Part shown: positions 10,234-47,873 of the stretch, in pieces
Layout of the letters: each line of letters begins with the position of its first letter
Position numbering within the stretch: position 1 is the stretch's first letter
Assembly: GCA_016234495.1 (NCBI GenBank)
Contig: JACRBI010000043.1
Location: forward strand, 1 to 64,000
Length of the DNA stretch: 64,000 nt
Source: Chloroflexota bacterium
GTDB taxonomy: Bacteria > Chloroflexota > Anaerolineae > Anaerolineales > Villigracilaceae
Direction: 5' to 3'
Position numbers and translations under genes: made by a program
Notes under the pieces: generated by a model
Database searches by the model: none
What the model was told of the DNA's origin: nothing
The model's input: the letters and a program-made list of their open reading frames with translations, nothing else

Positions 10234-10455
10234 ATGGCAACCAAAAAATCTGAAAACGGAAAGAAATTCAGCCGCGAGATACCGGAAGAAGTCCGCGAGC
10301 ATTACAAGAAAGCCCGTCAGGAAATGCGCGAGGCTGTCAAAGGTCTACTGCCGGAAGGCTTCCTCGAACACCGCCGCGCCGCCCGCAAGGAAATGATGCT
10401 GGCTGTGCGCAGTATGCTGGATGCAGCGATCGAAAAGATGGAAGAAAAAAAGTAA
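10234..10455 (+). CDS. Small charged helical protein, unknown
   Basis: A 73-residue protein rich in Lys, Arg and Glu, apparently all helical with heptad-like spacing (REHYKKARQEMREAVKGLLP). It has its own TATAAT box, an AAAGGAG ribosome-binding site at normal spacing and a following palindrome, so it is very likely a real gene. There are no membrane helices or cysteines, and I do not recognise the family. Nucleic-acid or membrane-surface binding would suit the charge but is a guess. Confidence 0.7.
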   Translation: MATKKSENGKKFSREIPEEVREHYKKARQEMREAVKGLLPEGFLEHRRAARKEMMLAVRSMLDAAIEKMEEKK

Positions 10456-10466
10456 CGAAAACCTTT

Positions 10467-10540
10467 AACCACAAAGTATAAAAAGTATCACGAAGGAAAC
10501 CCCAAAAAACCTTTGTGTTCCTTCGTGACACTTTGCGGTT
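10467..10540. repeat. Imperfect palindrome AACCACAAAGT...ACTTTGCGGTT
   Basis: Outer arms AACCACAAAGT and ACTTTGCGGTT enclose inner arms TCACGAAGGAA and TTCCTTCGTGA. It lies between convergent genes and may also terminate transcription. It resembles a dispersed repeat type common in Anaerolineae and other phyla. Confidence 0.75.
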
Positions 10541-10546
10541 AATTTT

Positions 10547-12232
10547 TTATTTTCTTCCCCCAAACACCACCCACAACAACGTCGCACCTGCAGCGCCCAG
10601 CAAGCCTCCCCCAAGTTGAGCATTCCCACTATTTAACAACATCACGCCGCTGACTAGAAACGCGGCGAAGACAACTCCGCCTGTCAGACGGTCCACCGAG
10701 CGCCCCAGCGCGCGGACTTCGCGCGTCACCTGCGGCGATTGAACCGTCAGCCCGCCCGATTCCATTTGCGCAAGCAGCCGGCTGGCCTGAGATGGCAAAG
10801 CGACAAACGCCTGCACCACATCCCCGGCTTGTTTCAGGAAATTATCCAAACTGAAAGCCGACGTGGCTTCCTCCTGCACGAGTTTGCCCGCATATGGCGA
10901 GAGTTGTTCCCATAAATTAAAGTTTGGATCAAGACCGGTACACATGCCTGAAAGGATCGCAACCGTGCGCACCAGCATCAGCAGGTCATTCGGCACCTGA
11001 AACGGAGTATCTACCATTACATCGCGCACCTTATGGCCGATATCGCGCACTTCGTTCGGGCGGACGTTCTTCAACTCGCTCATCGACATGCCCCAAAAGC
11101 GGTCGAACACGGCTGCAGACGCCTGCTCCAATGCCTGAGTGTCTGCGCCCGGCAGCAGGAATCCCAACTCTTTGTATGACTTGATCAAACGCGCCGCGTC
11201 GCGTGTGCCAACGGCAATGACAGTCTCGCGCAGAGCCATGCGAAGATTATCCGGCACATGCCCCACCATGCCAAAATCCACGAAGGTCAATTGCCAGCGC
11301 GCAGACTTGCGCTTGCTGCCCTTCGCGGGCGGCAGCGGCGTAACGAATAAATTCCCGGGGTGCGGGTCGGCGTGAAAAAATCCGTCTTCAAAAATTTGCT
11401 CGAGGTACACATCCAATAATTTCCGCGCCACTTCGCCGCGGTTAATGCCTGCGGCGGTGATGGCATCGTAATCCGTGATCTTGATCGCGAAAACATCTTC
11501 AAGGGTCAGCACGCGCAGTGTGGACAGTTCTCTTGCAACGCGCGGCACGTTCACGTATTTGTCGTCTTTGAAATTCTCAAAAAAAGTTTCAGCGTTATCG
11601 GCTTCGTGTTTGTAGTCAATCTCTTCGTGCAGGGTGGTTGAAAACTCACGCAGCAGGGCGGGCACATCGGCATGTTCGCGCACGGGGCGGTAATACATCA
11701 GCCAATGACCAACCCGCTGCAACGCTGACAGGTCAACGGTCACGATGGATGCGATGTTTGGGCGTTGGACTTTAACGACGACGTTAAGAAAATTCGCATC
11801 TTCCCCGCGCTGTAATCTGGCTCTGTGTACCTGTCCAAGTGACGCCGCTGCGAGCGGGTTCTCGTCAAACCATTCAAATTTTTCTGCGAGCGGAGCGCCG
11901 AGTTCCCGCTCTGCCAGTTGACGGATATCTGCAAAAGTTTCAGCGGGGACTTCATCCTGCAAATCGGCTAGGGTGTCGGTGATTTCGGGCGGAAGAATAT
12001 CAAGGCGCGAAGAAAGAAACTGCCCGACCTTGATCATCACGCCGCCCATGTGCAAAGCCAGCGCGCGAAAACGCAGCGCTTCGCGGCGAAAGCGTTCGGG
12101 ACGGGTGCGCTTTGCCAGTTGGCGAAAGCCAACCTTGCGAACGATCAGTTCCCAATAAATAAAGCGGGCGATGACACCCGTAAAAAAAGAAAGGATGCGG
12201 AGGTAACGTCCGCGCAAACGTGATGATTTCAT
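10547..12232 (-). CDS. ABC1/UbiB-family atypical kinase
   Basis: A 561-residue ABC1 protein. The family signature K-x-G-Q (IKVGQFLSSRLDILP, about residue 67), the Ala-rich loop AAASLGQVHRA, VVKVQRP, HADPHPGN and FVDFGMVG are all present. Two hydrophobic helices lie at the C-terminus (about 515-558). UbiB/ADCK relatives act in ubiquinone or lipid metabolism as membrane-bound ATPases; the substrate here is unknown. No ubi gene is nearby. The start overlaps the stop of a 7-codon upstream ORF (ATGA at 12229-12232). Confidence 0.9.
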   Translation of the reverse strand: MKSSRLRGRYLRILSFFTGVIARFIYWELIVRKVGFRQLAKRTRPERFRREALRFRALALHMGGVMIKVGQFLSSRLDILPPEITDTLADLQDEVPAETFADIRQLAERELGAPLAEKFEWFDENPLAAASLGQVHRARLQRGEDANFLNVVVKVQRPNIASIVTVDLSALQRVGHWLMYYRPVREHADVPALLREFSTTLHEEIDYKHEADNAETFFENFKDDKYVNVPRVARELSTLRVLTLEDVFAIKITDYDAITAAGINRGEVARKLLDVYLEQIFEDGFFHADPHPGNLFVTPLPPAKGSKRKSARWQLTFVDFGMVGHVPDNLRMALRETVIAVGTRDAARLIKSYKELGFLLPGADTQALEQASAAVFDRFWGMSMSELKNVRPNEVRDIGHKVRDVMVDTPFQVPNDLLMLVRTVAILSGMCTGLDPNFNLWEQLSPYAGKLVQEEATSAFSLDNFLKQAGDVVQAFVALPSQASRLLAQMESGGLTVQSPQVTREVRALGRSVDRLTGGVVFAAFLVSGVMLLNSGNAQLGGGLLGAAGATLLWVVFGGRK

Positions 12233-19340: not shown

Positions 19341-19829
19341 TTAGTGGTGATGTCCCTCTTCATGGACGTGACCGTGATCAAGTTCCTCTTTGGTGGGGTC
19401 GCGCAAGGCAACCACCTTCACGTTGAAGTGCAGTTCCGCGCCTGCGAGCGGGTGGTTGAAGTCAAGGCGCACAGACTCGTCGGTGATGCTTTCGATGCGC
19501 GCATATTGATTTTTACCTTCATCATCGGTGACGCTCAACTCCACGCCTTCTTCGATCTGCAGGTCGCTGGGAAAATCACTGCGCGGCACATCCATGAATC
19601 CTTCCTCGTCGAATTCACCATAGCCGTCTGCGGGAGAGACCACAACGTCCTTGCTCTCACCGATCTTCATGCCGATCATTTCACGTTCCAGCCCGGGCAC
19701 AATATTGTCATAACCTGCGAGGAATTGCAAAGGTCCCTGTCCGTCTGAAGAATCGAGGACTTCGCCATCCACTGTCAGCTTGTAATCCATTGAAACAACC
19801 AAACCATCCTGTACTGTATCTTTGCTCAT
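19341..19829 (-). CDS. slyD: FKBP-type peptidyl-prolyl isomerase, SlyD-like
   Basis: A 162-residue SlyD-type protein with a split FKBP domain (VVSMDYKLTVDGEVLDSS, then FLAGYDNIVPGLEREMIGMKIG), an insert-in-flap chaperone domain (about 70-125), and a His-rich tail (HGHVHEEGHHH) able to bind nickel, as in SlyD. It acts in cytoplasmic protein folding and metal delivery. AAAGGA precedes the ATG; TACAAT lies about 30 nt upstream. Confidence 0.92.
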   Translation of the reverse strand: MSKDTVQDGLVVSMDYKLTVDGEVLDSSDGQGPLQFLAGYDNIVPGLEREMIGMKIGESKDVVVSPADGYGEFDEEGFMDVPRSDFPSDLQIEEGVELSVTDDEGKNQYARIESITDESVRLDFNHPLAGAELHFNVKVVALRDPTKEELDHGHVHEEGHHH

Positions 19830-19915
19830 TTTTTATCCTTTCAAAATTTAATGCGCACATTGTACCAGTGAATAAGAGGGTCAAAGGTTTGAAGGTTGAA
19901 AGTTGTAGGTCAACC

Positions 19916-19943
19916 CCTAATTCCTAATCCCTAATTCCTAATT
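19916..19943. repeat. CTAATTC direct-repeat array
   Basis: Tandem CCTAATTCC / CTAATCC units directly before the ATP-grasp -10 box. A related run, on the other strand, is at 47801-47823. Confidence 0.6.
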
Positions 19944-19956
19944 TATAATGCCATCC
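19944..19956 (+). promoter_or_regulatory. Leaderless-type promoter of the ATP-grasp gene
   Basis: TATAATGCCATCCATG: a perfect -10 hexamer, 7 nt, then ATG at 19957. The other in-frame ATG (19948) lies inside the -10 box, so 19957 is the likelier start. No Shine-Dalgarno site. Confidence 0.6.
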
Positions 19957-20838
19957 ATGCGATATGACTTATGCCTGCCGTGGTACTGGGAATATGACGA
20001 TTCTTTCGTCGGGATGGTGGAGCGCGCCTGCATTGAAGAAGGGATTTCCCTTTGGCAGATCAAGCCCGATAATCTACTTGAATCCATTACTGCGCTTTAC
20101 AAGGGAATCACAACTTTCAAGACGCTCTTGAATCGCGGACAGGGTGAAGCGATCTTCGACCCGATTCCACGCTGGGCAAAGGAGTTCGGTGCGCGCCGCA
20201 TCAACCCGCTGGAGGTTTCGGCGTGGTCGGAAGATAAAGCCACGATGCACCTTGAACTGATCAACAGCGGACTGCATACGCCATACACCATTTTGCTTGC
20301 TCCTTTCCTCGAACAGCCTGTCATTCCGCCCATTGACCTGACCCCGCTCGGCGAAAATTTTGTCATCAAGCCTTCCAACGGCGGAGGCGGTGAAGGCGTG
20401 ATCATTGGTGCGTCATCCATTGAAGAAATTTTGCAGGCGCGCATGGAATTCCCCGAGCAGAAATATTTAATTCAAGCGCATGTCACCCCGCGCGTGATCA
20501 AAGGCACGCCCGCCTGGTTCCGCGTCTTTTACGCCAATGGCGAAACGTATCCCTGCTGGTGGGATACAACGACGCACATCTATCAAAATGTCACAGCGGA
20601 GGATGAGTCTCAGTATCGCCTGGGCAGGCTGCGGGATGTGACGAAGCGCATCGCATCCATTTGCAGGCTGGATTGGTTCAGCACAGAAATCGCATTGGCA
20701 AAAGAGCTCATCGTCGTGGATTATGTCAACGATGAGATTGATACGCGCGTCCAGTCGCAGGCTATGGACGGCGTTCCCGATGAAATCATGGAAGGCATTG
20801 CAAAGCAACTTGTAAAGATTGCAAAAGAGCAGGTATGA
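19957..20838 (+). CDS. ATP-grasp domain protein, unknown substrate
   Basis: A 293-residue protein of the ATP-grasp fold. The Gly-rich loop FVIKPSNGGGGEGV (about residue 135) follows the usual lysine of the ATP site, and the later E-I-A...VDYVNDEID part fits the Mg-binding strand of RimK/carboxylate-amine ligases. The order N-domain, hinge, ATP-grasp agrees with that fold. There are no neighbouring peptide or cofactor genes, so the substrate cannot be guessed. The gene appears leaderless. Confidence 0.7.
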   Translation: MRYDLCLPWYWEYDDSFVGMVERACIEEGISLWQIKPDNLLESITALYKGITTFKTLLNRGQGEAIFDPIPRWAKEFGARRINPLEVSAWSEDKATMHLELINSGLHTPYTILLAPFLEQPVIPPIDLTPLGENFVIKPSNGGGGEGVIIGASSIEEILQARMEFPEQKYLIQAHVTPRVIKGTPAWFRVFYANGETYPCWWDTTTHIYQNVTAEDESQYRLGRLRDVTKRIASICRLDWFSTEIALAKELIVVDYVNDEIDTRVQSQAMDGVPDEIMEGIAKQLVKIAKEQV

Positions 20839-20839
20839 C

Positions 20840-21338
20840 AGAAGGCGGCGAGCGGAATGCAGAATATGTGATGGAGGAAAAATGGCTTACGAGGAATTAA
20901 AAGGTCATAGGGATTTGAAAGTGTATCAATTGGCTTATAAGCTGGCGATGGAAATATTTCACGAGACCAAAGTCTTTCCAAAAAGACGAGCGTTATTCAT
21001 TGACCGATCAGATTCGCCGTTGTTCGAGAAGTGTTGCCGCAAATATTGCCGAAGGTTTTCGCAAAAGAAAATATCCAAAAATGTTCCTAAGCAAACTCGC
21101 AGATGCAGACGGTGAAGCCACCGAAACACAAGTCTGGTTGGATTTCGCCCGCGACTGCGAATATCTTACTCCTAAACGTCAAGCCGAACTTCAAAAAAGC
21201 TACGAAGATGTTGGAAGAATGCTTGGCAAAATGATGTCCATGCCCGAAAAGTTCACCCCCTCCAATCAACGCCACGAAGAATAAAAGCCGCTTTCTGCTT
21301 TCCGCTTTTTGCCTTGTGCATTCTGCTTTCCGCCTTCT
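20840..21338. repeat. Inverted flanking repeats around the four-helix-bundle gene
   Basis: AGAAGGCGG with GCGGAATGCAGAAT (20840-20865) appears inverted as ATTCTGCTTTCCGCCTTCT at 21320-21338; further CTTTCTGCTTTCCGC copies lie at 21291-21330. The repeats bracket only the frameshifted four-helix-bundle ORF. Confidence 0.6.
20882..21284 (+). pseudogene. Four-helix-bundle protein (S23/IVP family), frameshifted
   Basis: Two overlapping frames together encode the standard about 133-residue four-helix-bundle protein. The first frame gives MAYEELKGHRDLKVYQLAYKL and stays good up to VFPK; the other resumes with the core TDQIRRCSRSVAANIAEGF and continues to the end. The break is at a run of five A (20980-20984) where four would keep the frame. 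GGAGG precedes the ATG by 4 nt. Family members occur as inserts in 23S rRNA genes and as Avd-like proteins of retroelements, but many stand alone. The extra A may be a sequencing error, a real mutation or a slippery site. Confidence 0.8.
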
Positions 21339-21417
21339 GCTATCCACCTTCCGCACTCCTACAACTACATATTCAATCAAACGTACATACCGTAGTCCAT
21401 TTCCACAAGGAGCACTC

Positions 21418-22362
21418 ATGCCCAATATTCTCGAAGTCCAAAACCTCGTTAAAAATTATGGTGACTTTCAAGCCGTAAAAGGTGTGTCGTTCAATATTGA
21501 AGAAGGGGAAATTTTCAGCCTGCTCGGACCCAACGGCGCGGGCAAGACTACGACCATCTCCATGCTGTCCACTTTATACACACCTACATCCGGTGACGCA
21601 GCCATTGGCGGACATTCTGTCACAAAAGACCCGATGGCCGTGCGCGGCGTGATCGGTGTTGTCCCGCAAGACCTCGCTTTGTACGAAGACCTGACCGCCC
21701 GCGAGAACTTGATCTTTTGGGGGCAGATGTATAACTTAAGCGGCAAGGCGCTCAACTCACGGGTGGACGAAGTGCTGGAGCAAATCGGCTTGACCGATAA
21801 AGCAAAAAATCGAGTCAAAACTTTTTCAGGCGGCATGAAGCGCCGTGTCAACATCGGCGTTGGGCTGCTCCACAAACCGCGCCTGCTCTTCATGGACGAA
21901 CCCACCGTCGGCATTGACCCGCAATCGCGCCGCGCGATTTTGGATACTGTCAAAGACTTGAACAAGCAAGGCATGACCTTGCTCTACACCACGCATTACA
22001 TGGAAGAAGCCGAGGAACTCTCCAACCGCGTCGGCATCATTGACCACGGCGAGCTGATCGCACTGGGCACGCAGAAGGAACTCACCCAGCAGGTTGGTCA
22101 AGCTGAAACGCTGATTCTGCATATTGGCGAGAACGACGATTCAGAAGCCCTCGCTGTGACACTTAAAACCATTCAGGGCGTGCAGCAAGCTGAAGCCGTT
22201 GACCACGAAGTCTCGATCGTCTGCGCTGAAGCCGAAGATGTGCTGGCGGCTGTCGTCACCAAAGCTAACGACCGCGGCATCAAGATTCGCTCGATCGATA
22301 TCCGCGAGCCGAATCTCGAAGCGGTGTTTTTGCATCTCACTGGCAGAGCGTTGCGTGACTGA
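21418..22362 (+). CDS. ABC-2 exporter ATP-binding protein
   Basis: A 314-residue ATPase of the DrrA/CcmA group: Walker A GPNGAGKTT (about residue 39), signature FSGGMKRRVNIG, Walker B LLFMDEPTVGID, H-loop TTHYMEEAE, and a C-terminal about 80-residue regulatory extension typical of drug and lipid exporters. ATG at 21418 follows AAGGAG; the upstream in-frame ATG (21316) reads through repeat sequence. The first gene of a three-gene exporter with two permeases. Confidence 0.92.
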   Translation: MPNILEVQNLVKNYGDFQAVKGVSFNIEEGEIFSLLGPNGAGKTTTISMLSTLYTPTSGDAAIGGHSVTKDPMAVRGVIGVVPQDLALYEDLTARENLIFWGQMYNLSGKALNSRVDEVLEQIGLTDKAKNRVKTFSGGMKRRVNIGVGLLHKPRLLFMDEPTVGIDPQSRRAILDTVKDLNKQGMTLLYTTHYMEEAEELSNRVGIIDHGELIALGTQKELTQQVGQAETLILHIGENDDSEALAVTLKTIQGVQQAEAVDHEVSIVCAEAEDVLAAVVTKANDRGIKIRSIDIREPNLEAVFLHLTGRALRD

Positions 22363-22371
22363 CACGAGACC

Positions 22372-22429
22372 ATTGACGATAGACCGTAGACCATATAAAA
22401 CGGCCAATCGTCCAATGTCCATCGTCAAT
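22372..22429. repeat. Inverted repeat ATTGACGAT/ATCGTCAAT
   Basis: A 9-bp perfect inverted repeat (22372-22380, 22421-22429) with GACCGTAGACC-like units between. It fills the gap between the exporter ATPase and its first permease. Confidence 0.6.
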
Positions 22430-22440
22430 ACGGAGTATTC

Positions 22441-23700
22441 ATGCTAAAAACATTTCTCATCGGTATCAAAGATTTACGCCTCGCGTTCCGCGACCGCGCC
22501 GCGCTGATTCTTATGCTGGCCGCGCCATTCGTGCTGACGCTCGGCCTCGGCCTCGTCACGGGACGTTTCAGCGGCAATAACAACAGCGGGCTTTCCGACA
22601 TTCCCGTCATCATCGTCAATTTGGATAATGACCAGATGGGAGATGCATTGACAGATGTATTCACTTCGGAAGAACTTGCCGATTTGATGGAACCAGTTCT
22701 CGGGTCCGACCCCGAAGCGGCGCGCCAGTTAATTGACGAAGATCAAGCTGCGGCGGTTGTCATCATCCCCAAAGGCTTTACCCGATCCATCATCCCGCAG
22801 GAAAACAATTTTGCCACCCCTTCAGACCCGGTAAAAATCGAAGTGTACGCCAACCCGTCGCGGCGCACGAGCGCAGGCATCGTCAAATCCATCGTGGATG
22901 AATTTCTCAGCCGCGTGGAAGAAGGCCGTGTCAGCGGCAGTGTATCCATTTTTCAGCTCATGCTCAGCGGGCGAATCACACCCGGCCAGGCCCAGGCTGC
23001 GGGCATCGCCATGACCGAACAATTACAAACCAACACCACCGACAGCGACCTTGCGATCAAATTAAATTCATCCACTGCTGCCGGCGAGGAAGTGGACTTC
23101 GATATTCTCGCCTATCTTGCCCCCGGCATGGCGCTGATGTTTTTGATGTACACCGTCAGTTATGGCGGGCGTTCCATCCTTGCAGAAAAAACTCAAGGCA
23201 CACTGCCGCGTTTGCTGGTCTCACCCACAAGTTCATCTCAAATTTTAGGCGGCAAAGTCTTTGGCATCTTCTTAACCGGCGCAGCGCAAATGTTAATTCT
23301 CATCGGCGCATCGTCGTTGTTCTTCCAACTCAAATGGGGCGACCCAATTGGAGTGATTGTTCTTGTGCTTGCGGCGGTCTTCGGCGCAACAGGCTGGGGC
23401 ATGTTCATCACCGCGCTGGCACGCACGCCCGCGCAGGTCGCCAGCATCGGGACGGCCGTCATGCTGATCTTCGGCATCCTCGGCGGGAGCTTCATCAGCC
23501 TCGATCAAATGCCGCCTGCGATTCAAACCTTTAGCAGGATCACTCCCAACTCGTGGGCATTGGATGGATTCACCACACTGGGACTCGGCGGGACGTTGAC
23601 GAATCTTTCCACGCCGATAGCGGCCCTGCTCGCGATGGGCATTTCCTTGTTTTTGGTTTCTGTTGCGCTGTTCGGCAAAAAGAATTTGGTGCAGAAATGA
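22441..23700 (+). CDS. ABC-2 type exporter permease
   Basis: A 419-residue permease: one N-terminal helix (about 20-42), a large extracytoplasmic domain (about 50-230) and five to six C-terminal helices, the YhgE/ABC-2 layout. EKTQGTLPRLLVSPTS is the conserved coupling segment before helix 3. CGGAG lies 5 nt upstream of the ATG. The next permease starts within its stop codon (ATGA). Confidence 0.88.
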   Translation: MLKTFLIGIKDLRLAFRDRAALILMLAAPFVLTLGLGLVTGRFSGNNNSGLSDIPVIIVNLDNDQMGDALTDVFTSEELADLMEPVLGSDPEAARQLIDEDQAAAVVIIPKGFTRSIIPQENNFATPSDPVKIEVYANPSRRTSAGIVKSIVDEFLSRVEEGRVSGSVSIFQLMLSGRITPGQAQAAGIAMTEQLQTNTTDSDLAIKLNSSTAAGEEVDFDILAYLAPGMALMFLMYTVSYGGRSILAEKTQGTLPRLLVSPTSSSQILGGKVFGIFLTGAAQMLILIGASSLFFQLKWGDPIGVIVLVLAAVFGATGWGMFITALARTPAQVASIGTAVMLIFGILGGSFISLDQMPPAIQTFSRITPNSWALDGFTTLGLGGTLTNLSTPIAALLAMGISLFLVSVALFGKKNLVQK

Positions 23701-42104: not shown

Positions 42105-42206
42105 GTTCTCATTTTCGATTTCAGATTTTTTGTGTTTACAGGTTTGAAGGTTTAAAAGTTGGCAGGTTATGGAGAATCTTTCCAACCTTCCAACTTGAAA
42201 ACGTTT

Positions 42207-42917
42207 TTACAAAATTCCCAGATTTTTCAGCGCATCCTGCGCGGCGGCATGTTCGGCATTGCCCTTGCTCGTGCCTGTGCCGCTTCCCTTTTCAACACCC
42301 GCAATCTCAACCACCATTTCAAAGACTACTGCATGGTCGGGTCCGCTTGTGCCGACCACGCGATAGCGCGGCGCGCCTAATTTCTTTGACTGCGACCATT
42401 CTTGCAGTTGACTCTTTGGGTCGTGGATTTCCTTCAGGACGAGTTCACGAGATTCTTCCAGTCTCGGGTTGACAAACGCTTCCGCCGCACCGAGACCTGA
42501 GTCTAAATACAATGCGCCGATCAGCGCTTCGAAAGCCGACCCAAGCAAATTGTCACGGTCACGGCCGCCGGAGGATATTTCTCCGCGACCAAGCCGCATC
42601 GCGCGTCCAAGGTCCAGTTTGCGGGCGAACTTGGCGAGCTGATCGTTGCGGACAAGCGCTGAGCGCATTTTGGTCAAGTCGCCTTCAGGCATCTCGGGGA
42701 AACGATTAAACACCCATGCACCGACGATGAAATCCAGTACGGCGTCACCGAGGAATTCAAGGCGCTCGTTATCTTCAACCGCCTGCGAGTTCTCGTTCAG
42801 GTACGATCGGTGGGTCAGAGCACGCGTCAGCAAAGATAAATTTGAAAAGGACAGACCCAGCCGTCGGCTTAGGTCAGATGCGGATTCTACATCCCGCGCA
42901 TGATTTACAGATACCAC
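42207..42917 (-). CDS. rnc: Ribonuclease III
   Basis: A 236-residue RNase III: catalytic domain with DNERLEFLGDAVLDF and the second metal site in NLLGSAFEALIGALYLD, then a C-terminal dsRNA-binding domain (KSQLQEWSQSKKLGAPRY). The frame is open to 43058, but that N-terminus is not conserved; the GTG at 42917 follows GGGAGG at 6 nt and leaves a normal-length enzyme. The upstream leader holds a long stem (42980-43020). Confidence 0.9.
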   Translation of the reverse strand: MVSVNHARDVESASDLSRRLGLSFSNLSLLTRALTHRSYLNENSQAVEDNERLEFLGDAVLDFIVGAWVFNRFPEMPEGDLTKMRSALVRNDQLAKFARKLDLGRAMRLGRGEISSGGRDRDNLLGSAFEALIGALYLDSGLGAAEAFVNPRLEESRELVLKEIHDPKSQLQEWSQSKKLGAPRYRVVGTSGPDHAVVFEMVVEIAGVEKGSGTGTSKGNAEHAAAQDALKNLGIL

Positions 42918-47799: not shown

Positions 47800-47800
47800 A

Positions 47801-47823
47801 GATTAGGTGATTAGGAATTAGGT
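47801..47823. repeat. GATTAGG repeat run
   Basis: GATTAGGTGATTAGGAATTA, the inverted type of the CTAATTCC array at 19916. Confidence 0.5.
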
Positions 47824-47828
47824 AACAT

Positions 47829-47862
47829 AAAAGATGCCTCCGATATTTTGGAGGCATCTTTT
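47829..47862. terminator. Bidirectional terminator
   Basis: AAAAGATGCCTCC / GGAGGCATCTTTT, a 13-bp perfect stem with an 8-nt loop, between the convergent acyl-CoA ligase and ftsH genes. Confidence 0.9.
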
Positions 47863-47873
47863 ATGTTTATTTT

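Follow-up and report, generated by a model that had tools for sequence, protein, structure and literature searches.

Inverted arrays of short words around a four-helix-bundle gene suggest a widespread kind of mobile cassette at bacterial gene junctions

Introduction

In a 64,000-nucleotide stretch of contig JACRBI010000043.1 from a Chloroflexota bacterium (assembly GCA_016234495.1; the whole stretch analysed is called the window below), a frame-broken gene of the four-helix-bundle S23/IVP family (PF05635) lies between inverted repeats at the junction of two protein genes, and the locus raises the question of what kind of unit the gene and its repeats form. For the S23/IVP four-helix proteins, the function has been described as not known and the source of the rRNA inserts as unclear (PMC4990558). 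Here we describe the unit, at 20839–21358, together with its relatives; the same arrangement at gene–gene junctions of many bacteria suggests a widespread, little-noticed kind of mobile cassette. The cassette itself we regard as near certain, and it is probably a rarely moving, selfish, hairpin-armed element with a protein that recognises the arms of that element; the RNA stage is the least certain step of this interpretation.

Results

Anatomy of the unit

The unit consists of the following parts, preceded by the codon that it abuts.

20836–20838, plus strand: stop codon of the upstream gene, abutting the left arm
20839–20865, plus strand: left arm, about four degenerate heptamers, G-rich in the sense of the gene, of GCAGAAG/GCGGAAT type
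20873–20877, plus strand: GGAGG resembling a ribosome-binding site (RBS), read by eye from the sequence
20882–21284, plus strand: four-helix-bundle gene (PF05635), from open reading frames (ORFs) and profile matches, the frame being broken at the A5 run 20980–20984
21288–21358, plus strand: right arm, about ten degenerate heptamers of TTCTGCT/TTCCGCC type, the inverse of the left arm

A degenerate 7-bp word (TTCTGCT/TTCCGCC) is repeated in tandem in each arm, and the two arrays are mutually inverse, the left one starting directly 3' of the upstream stop codon. A plain inverted repeat was rejected as a description, the arms being tandem arrays; of the inverted repeats described in an earlier note on this DNA, the inversion thus stands and the single repeat does not. 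The 26-nt stretches 20839–20864 and 21314–21339 are 85% complementary, and the arms pair in the predicted fold of this copy. When arms were scored by local alignment of the left flank with the inverted right flank (inverted-repeat score, IR), this locus reached 36, against 28 at the 99th percentile of 2000 random positions on one contig of the genome; for the right array, one of 150 random 900-bp pieces scored as well as the better of its two flanks. A scan of the window over periods of 4–15 gave a signal only at 7 and its double 14, and at the threshold used the 7-bp periodicity appeared at two places only, the right arm and 19909–19952. A known RNA family for the unit was rejected, as an Rfam search of 19700–22600 returned no match up to an E value of 1.

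The encoded protein and the broken frame

The segment after the A5 run belongs to the PF05635 family (86.7 bits; curated cut-off, 33.8), and the segment before it matches the same profile with 17 bits in a different frame, in agreement with the frame break at 20980–20984 first noticed by reading the sequence. Only PF05635/bAvd profiles match between the arms. For this run a sequencing error, a decay mutation and a slippage site had all been considered in the earlier note; slippage is not supported, and programmed frameshifting was rejected, because the three relatives checked (L037, L106, and L040) have no A run and an intact frame across that point. The frameshift therefore looks like decay or a sequence error, two causes not separable without reads. 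Another four-helix gene of the same genome (L009; contig C42, 16867–17154) is broken by an in-frame TAG.

An intact relative, L038, scores 110 bits against a cut-off of 24 for TIGR02436, and its AlphaFold model (predicted local distance difference test, 95.1) matches the solved relatives 2gsc and 2rld and, more weakly, the Avd protein of a diversity-generating retroelement (DGR), 4dwl (E 0.01; template-modelling scores of 0.73/0.89 with 4dwl_D). Sequence kinship with Avd is weak, L038 reaching 42.6 bits with NF033474, under its cut-off of 80. The solved Xanthomonas S23p is described as a homopentamer of four-helix bundles (PMC4990558).

Other copies in this genome and across bacteria

The genome of this bacterium (4.1 Mb, 98% complete) holds ten PF05635 loci, so that a search for the cassette elsewhere in the same genome, proposed beforehand, was answered by arms of differing words (e.g. 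AATTAGG, ATGGAGA, GTGTC-type, GACGATG, GAATTATG, and CGATTTA; the repeat unit is 8 bp at L004). Inspection by eye shows inverted arrays on both sides of all ten, and each left array begins in, or a few bases from, the stop codon of an upstream gene that runs in the same direction; seven of the ten score above 28, and the remaining three score 28 (L003) and 24 (L005 and L010).

Of 61 genomes from the genus and order, 54 contain PF05635. From these, a genus/order set of 80 genes from 80 loci was formed from the highest-scoring among the matches listed and the ten of this genome (81 were found, one being dropped for a short flank), and 57 of the 80 exceed an IR of 28, a threshold equal to the 99th percentile of the random positions and to the 95th percentile of mispaired flanks. 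Another set, the named set, comprised the best 80 of at least 586 confirmed matches, sought with one branch of the family, and was reduced to 79 after one was dropped; 53 of these pass. The passing carriers, many of them named strains, include Chloroflexota, Bacteroidota, Planctomycetota, Acidobacteriota, Verrucomicrobia-type (Opitutaceae), Pseudomonadota, Poribacteria, KSB1, Nitrospirae, and Nomurabacteria, among others; the failing records include cyanobacterial Hydrocoleum (L223, score 26), Geothrix oryzisoli (L247, score 28), and records of Methanophagales, Actinobacteria, Gemmatimonadetes, Elusimicrobia, Nitrospinota, and Alphaproteobacteria.

The same threshold is passed by 10 of 389 other ORFs, by 5 of 134 among those of 90–250 aa, and by 7 of 133 among ORFs with at least 40 bp of non-coding DNA on either side. 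One of these seven (c38:281094) is a cassette with a different cargo, and two of the ten (c38:372151 and c38:265482) are flanked by two separate hairpins, one to the left and one to the right. A chance origin of the arms was rejected on the random-position and other-gene controls. Among 105 passing elements with arms of at least 24 nt, the best lag in the left arm (lags 5–10) is 7 in 78, 8 in 22, 9 in four, and 10 in one.

The word follows the protein

The word varies among elements and yet tracks the protein, even where the flanking genes are unrelated. After comparison of the outer flanks by tblastx and then at the protein level, 3014 of 3160 pairs had no flank similarity; in these, the arms of proteins with less than 45% identity have a similarity of about 0.25, and the value is 0.27 at 45–55%, 0.39 at 55–65%, 0.45 at 65–80%, and 0.38 above 80% (two pairs), a modest correlation (0.15) that was reached in none of 500 permutations. 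For the 53 passing elements of the named set (1340 flank-unrelated pairs), arm similarity rises from 0.23 to 0.39 (55–65%) and 0.65 (above 65%, two pairs), the correlation being 0.32 (none of 1000 permutations). On the tree, clades tend to have their own words, GCAGAA-type in the clade of the present gene (L006, L037, L038, and L106) and TCAGC/TTAGC, GTTGA, CA-GTGT-type, TAGTC/TAGTT (8 bp), or GGTTGAA in others. Judged by eye, five positions of the word are constant in many arms and two are variable (three in 8-bp arrays). The RNA-binding protein TRAP reads spaced triplets, and by analogy a ring protein taking one word per subunit would yield such a pattern.

These data bear on a rival account of the unit, passive hitch-hiking, according to which replication slippage makes the words, template switching copies them between inverted arms, and a gene lodged there spreads by ordinary recombination. 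Lone arrays are indeed common, and at the pheS–pheT junction described below sister groups differ in the word of both arms while their proteins are 58–66% alike; however, the word tracks the protein across phyla and despite unrelated flanks, and other genes are seldom bracketed (the 7 of 133 above), and we consider this account highly improbable.

Orientation and insertion point

The gene lies mostly in the sense of its surroundings. In the genus/order set, as judged with a crude ORF caller, both neighbours are in the same sense in 62 of 80 cases, only the upstream one in 12 and only the downstream one in four, while two loci have no upstream ORF and none is antisense to both; in the named set (79), the counts are 52 with both in sense, nine with only the upstream and six with only the downstream neighbour in sense, four antisense to both, and eight incomplete. 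G exceeds C in the 5' arm in 71 of 80. Clean and filled sequences compared side by side place the insertion at the stop codon and 5' of the RBS, where a target-site duplication is unreadable, arm sequence running into both. The location of lone arrays relative to genes was left out of account, as the same caller puts 12 of 24 inside ORFs.

States of the junctions across species

The unit is flanked by the following features.

19948–20838, plus strand: upstream gene, an ORF that is ATP-grasp-like by a weak match only (PF14305, 16.5 bits, under the cut-off of 25)
21418–22362, plus strand: downstream gene, ABC transporter ATPase (PF00005, 121 bits)
22368–22429, plus strand: ORF-less hairpin of inverted GACGATA-type heptamer arrays, between the stop codon of the ABC ATPase and the next start codon

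Orthologue matches of the upstream gene were found in 32 of 41 genus genomes searched, and 30 loci from 30 of these 32, our own included, were compared. In three of them (L043, L064, and L070) the upstream gene adjoins the ABC gene with no four-helix gene between; an ORF-less hairpin with this unit's word stands there in L070, and L043 and L064 lack the gene as well as full arms (L064 shows an apparent half arm). In L052 another gene follows the upstream gene, and directly before the same ABC gene stands a copy from the same clade, decayed and internally deleted, with an array of a drifted word ahead of it and a short remnant of CCTTCTGCC type behind. The four-helix gene has a relative in L068 on the opposite side of the upstream gene, and in the remaining loci that gene is followed by another gene or other DNA. 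Among the 30 loci, no other genome has an intact copy at this junction, and a gene held in the same place without repeats in distant relatives, which had been named as the finding that would speak against a cassette, was not encountered.

Three further junctions, whose gene names (like that of a peptidase among the loci above) were read from translations, were compared at 30 loci each. At pheS–pheT, 15 loci have a four-helix gene, three are clean (10–11 bp), and 12 have spacers of 62–110 bp, by eye mostly a hairpin or a lone array. At znuC–znuB, where 16 of the loci are matches at merely 57–73% identity, four have the gene, 20 are clean (from a 13-bp overlap to an 11-bp gap), and six are longer, five of these six with arrays (by eye) and some with gene remnants. 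At the thiolase junction, six have a four-helix gene, two (L200 and L208) a gene of a second cargo family, GxxExxY, two (L203 and L219) are clean, and 20 have 44–94 bp, by eye mostly ORF-less inverted arrays of several words. The pheS–pheT genes form tree groups with their own words; occupation of this junction by separate clades, suggested by a first tree, was not borne out, a single clade not being rejected (approximately unbiased (AU) test, p 0.24; 15 versus 15 rows, quick tree), and repeated occupation of a junction rests on the thiolase junction, with its unrelated cargo genes and several words. With like genes and like arms in unrelated contexts, and clean junctions elsewhere, the small mobile cassette of the earlier note is supported in an evolutionary sense.

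The arrays could instead belong to a host regulator, a protein binding them in operon mRNA and tuning the expression or stability of the neighbours, with ORF-less hairpins as further targets. The sense placement at stop/RBS junctions, the word–protein linkage, the ORF-less hairpins sharing words, and the pheS–pheT junction filled in half of its loci, possibly by one old clade, would all suit such a role, which we nevertheless hold to be unlikely, since the same sites are clean in other species (20 of 30 at znuC–znuB, and 3 and 2 of 30 at pheS–pheT and the thiolase), the operons are unrelated, ORFs have decayed (this copy, L009, and L052), and unrelated cargo families stand at one junction.

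Second cargo and ORF-less hairpins

The second cargo, the nuclease family GxxExxY/PDDEXK_3 (PF13366, TIGR04256), occurs in 35 of 41 relatives. From a set of 30 loci, seven without the motif used for placing the gene were left aside, and 19 of the 23 scored pass the IR threshold, the best period being 9 in ten, 8 in four, 10 in three, 11 in one, and 6 in one. This genome has 12 GxxExxY/PF13366 matches, some of them fragments; fragmentary copies, apparently decaying and some with internal stops, are seen on contig C53 (7755–8220) and contig C43 (9094–9443).

A lax scan 3' of stop codons found, at 396 ORF ends in 464 kb, 108 hairpins above 99% of mononucleotide shuffles, terminators included; it replaced a strict census with a heavy mismatch penalty (nine hairpins, two periodic), which missed degenerate ones. 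Of 23 periodic hairpins picked by hand, 18 match the word of a coding element better than position-permuted words (60 permutations each), and five do not, among them the hairpin at 22368–22429 of the window (score 26 versus a 99% null of 20; period 7), the match of which to coding-element arms is not beyond chance (p 0.74). Three of four ORF-less hairpins folded gave z values of −5 to −7.5, and that of L070 gave −1.2.

The combination of a coding unit within inverted words and ORF-less hairpins resembles the REPIN/RAYT layout, in which a gene lies beside inverted words and many intergenic ORF-less hairpins of those words occur (PMC3116915). It might thus point to mobility at the DNA level, the single-stranded hairpin arms being moved by an enzyme acting in trans with the four-helix protein as an accessory, and the lack of a PF00078 reverse transcriptase in this genome would be in keeping with it. 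The sense bias (62 to 0 and 52 to 4) is unexpected under this scheme unless antisense copies are selected against, and no trans enzyme was identified, although Y1 transposases were not searched for; we give it a little less credence than the host regulator.

Further arrays and hairpins occur in the window. At 19880–19952, upstream of the ATP-grasp-like gene, a lone heptamer array of AAGGTTGA type is followed without a gap by another, of CCTAATT type, and no significant inverted partner was found for the second. A lone AATTAGG array adjoins a terminator-like hairpin between convergent ORFs at 47800–47870. On the minus strand, periodic ORF-less hairpins lie directly 3' of ORF ends at about 10450–10549, with a word like those of GxxExxY elements (CACGAAGG), and at 42110–42209, with a word like those of four-helix elements (GTTGGAAG).

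Discussion

The cassette is best read, by analogy, as corresponding within operons to the S23/IVP intervening sequences (IVSs) of 23S rRNA, and as resembling REPIN/RAYT in logic. In the Coxiella burnetii IVS, about 430 nt long, an ORF is enclosed by terminal inverted repeats that pair over about 28 bp as a stem (PMC4990558). The present unit shares the protein family, going by the Pfam name of PF05635, and has terminal inverted repeats that could likewise pair as a stem enclosing the ORF, but lies between a protein-coding ORF and an ABC ATPase gene instead of in rRNA, has tandem 7-bp arrays as arms with a word that changes with the protein, and belongs to a kind of junction that also holds ORF-less and alternative-cargo versions. 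Like REPIN/RAYT, it combines inverted words beside a gene with ORF-less hairpins of the same words; unlike in REPIN/RAYT, the word stands in 7–9-bp tandem arrays and not in a palindrome, the sense bias is strong, and the protein is a four-helix bundle or of the PD-(D/E)XK family and not a Y1 transposase. No Y1 (HUH) transposase is present in the unit, where the gene matches PF05635/bAvd only, the genome not having been searched for one. With DGR Avd the protein shares its fold and the weak kinship, and a DGR or a retron was rejected on the missing PF00078 reverse transcriptase.

Intergenic heptamer tandem repeats are known in cyanobacteria as short tandemly repeated repetitive (STRR) sequences. 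The TAACTGA repeats of Beggiatoaceae are likewise 7-bp tandem arrays, chiefly intergenic; that study counts direct repeats of one word and one inverted case, and its main text contains neither 'four helix' nor 'S23' (PMC4679880). A survey of titles and abstract openings, with subscription papers and preprints thinly covered, turned up no paper linking inverted heptamer arrays with four-helix/S23 or GxxExxY genes, which is not proof of absence.

For the preferred reading, a selfish cassette with a protein specific for its own arms, the following course may be envisaged. The general layout would begin at or near the upstream stop codon with a mostly G-rich array, the short word of which is 7 bp or sometimes 8 bp long; a four-helix-bundle gene, usually in sense, would follow, and then the inverted array, extending to near the RBS of the next gene. 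Because it is sense-oriented at a stop/start junction, such a cassette would be transcribed with the operon while harming neither neighbour. The arms may pair as a terminal stem in RNA or single-stranded DNA, and the ring-forming protein, whose target is most likely its own word, recurring at 7-nt intervals, may protect the stem-bracketed strand or help to move it. New junctions would be reached rarely and mostly between genomes, and copies would then decay, the ORF breaking (as presumably here) and disappearing to leave an ORF-less hairpin or a lone array.

Several observations weigh against this reading. Of the loci, 23 of 80 and 26 of 79 fail the threshold, and just 22 of 80 and 21 of 79 pass the 99th percentile of mispaired flanks (42 in the genus/order set), which score high because words recur between elements. 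In a unit-order shuffle, only 21 of 105 elements show significant complementarity over and above that of the shared word, a weak result, and the whole fold of this copy is slightly better than shuffles (z −1.4). The four named-set genes antisense to both neighbours all have passing arms. Among 57 genes compared within their genomes there are no recent duplicates (best identity, median 0.45, maximum 0.62), and the ten genes of this genome reach a best mutual identity of 0.51. The unit holds neither a transposase, which an insertion sequence would carry between its terminal inverted repeats, nor a reverse transcriptase, and the 98% complete genome, as noted, lacks PF00078. Finally, the AU test does not reject a single clade for the pheS–pheT genes. 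The negatives on duplicates, reverse transcriptase, complementarity, fold, and sub-threshold loci speak against a transposon that moves busily and are compatible with more than one route of movement.

More broadly, it is possible, though we put this forward tentatively, that a pan-bacterial class of RNA-borne selfish cassettes exists at operon stop/start junctions, with 7-bp (four-helix) or 9-bp (GxxExxY) inverted arrays, in which the protein of each clade would read its own word with a repeated subunit; ORF-less hairpins would then be non-autonomous offspring, and the rRNA intervening sequences a branch settled in rRNA. If the four-helix proteins are the word-readers of the cassettes, their function would become directly testable by binding to the word of each clade; many orphan genes annotated as 'four helix bundle protein' or 'GxxExxY protein' would also be accounted for, as would the degenerate heptamer repeats between operon genes, and the pairing of word and protein would constitute a natural code from protein to short nucleic-acid word.
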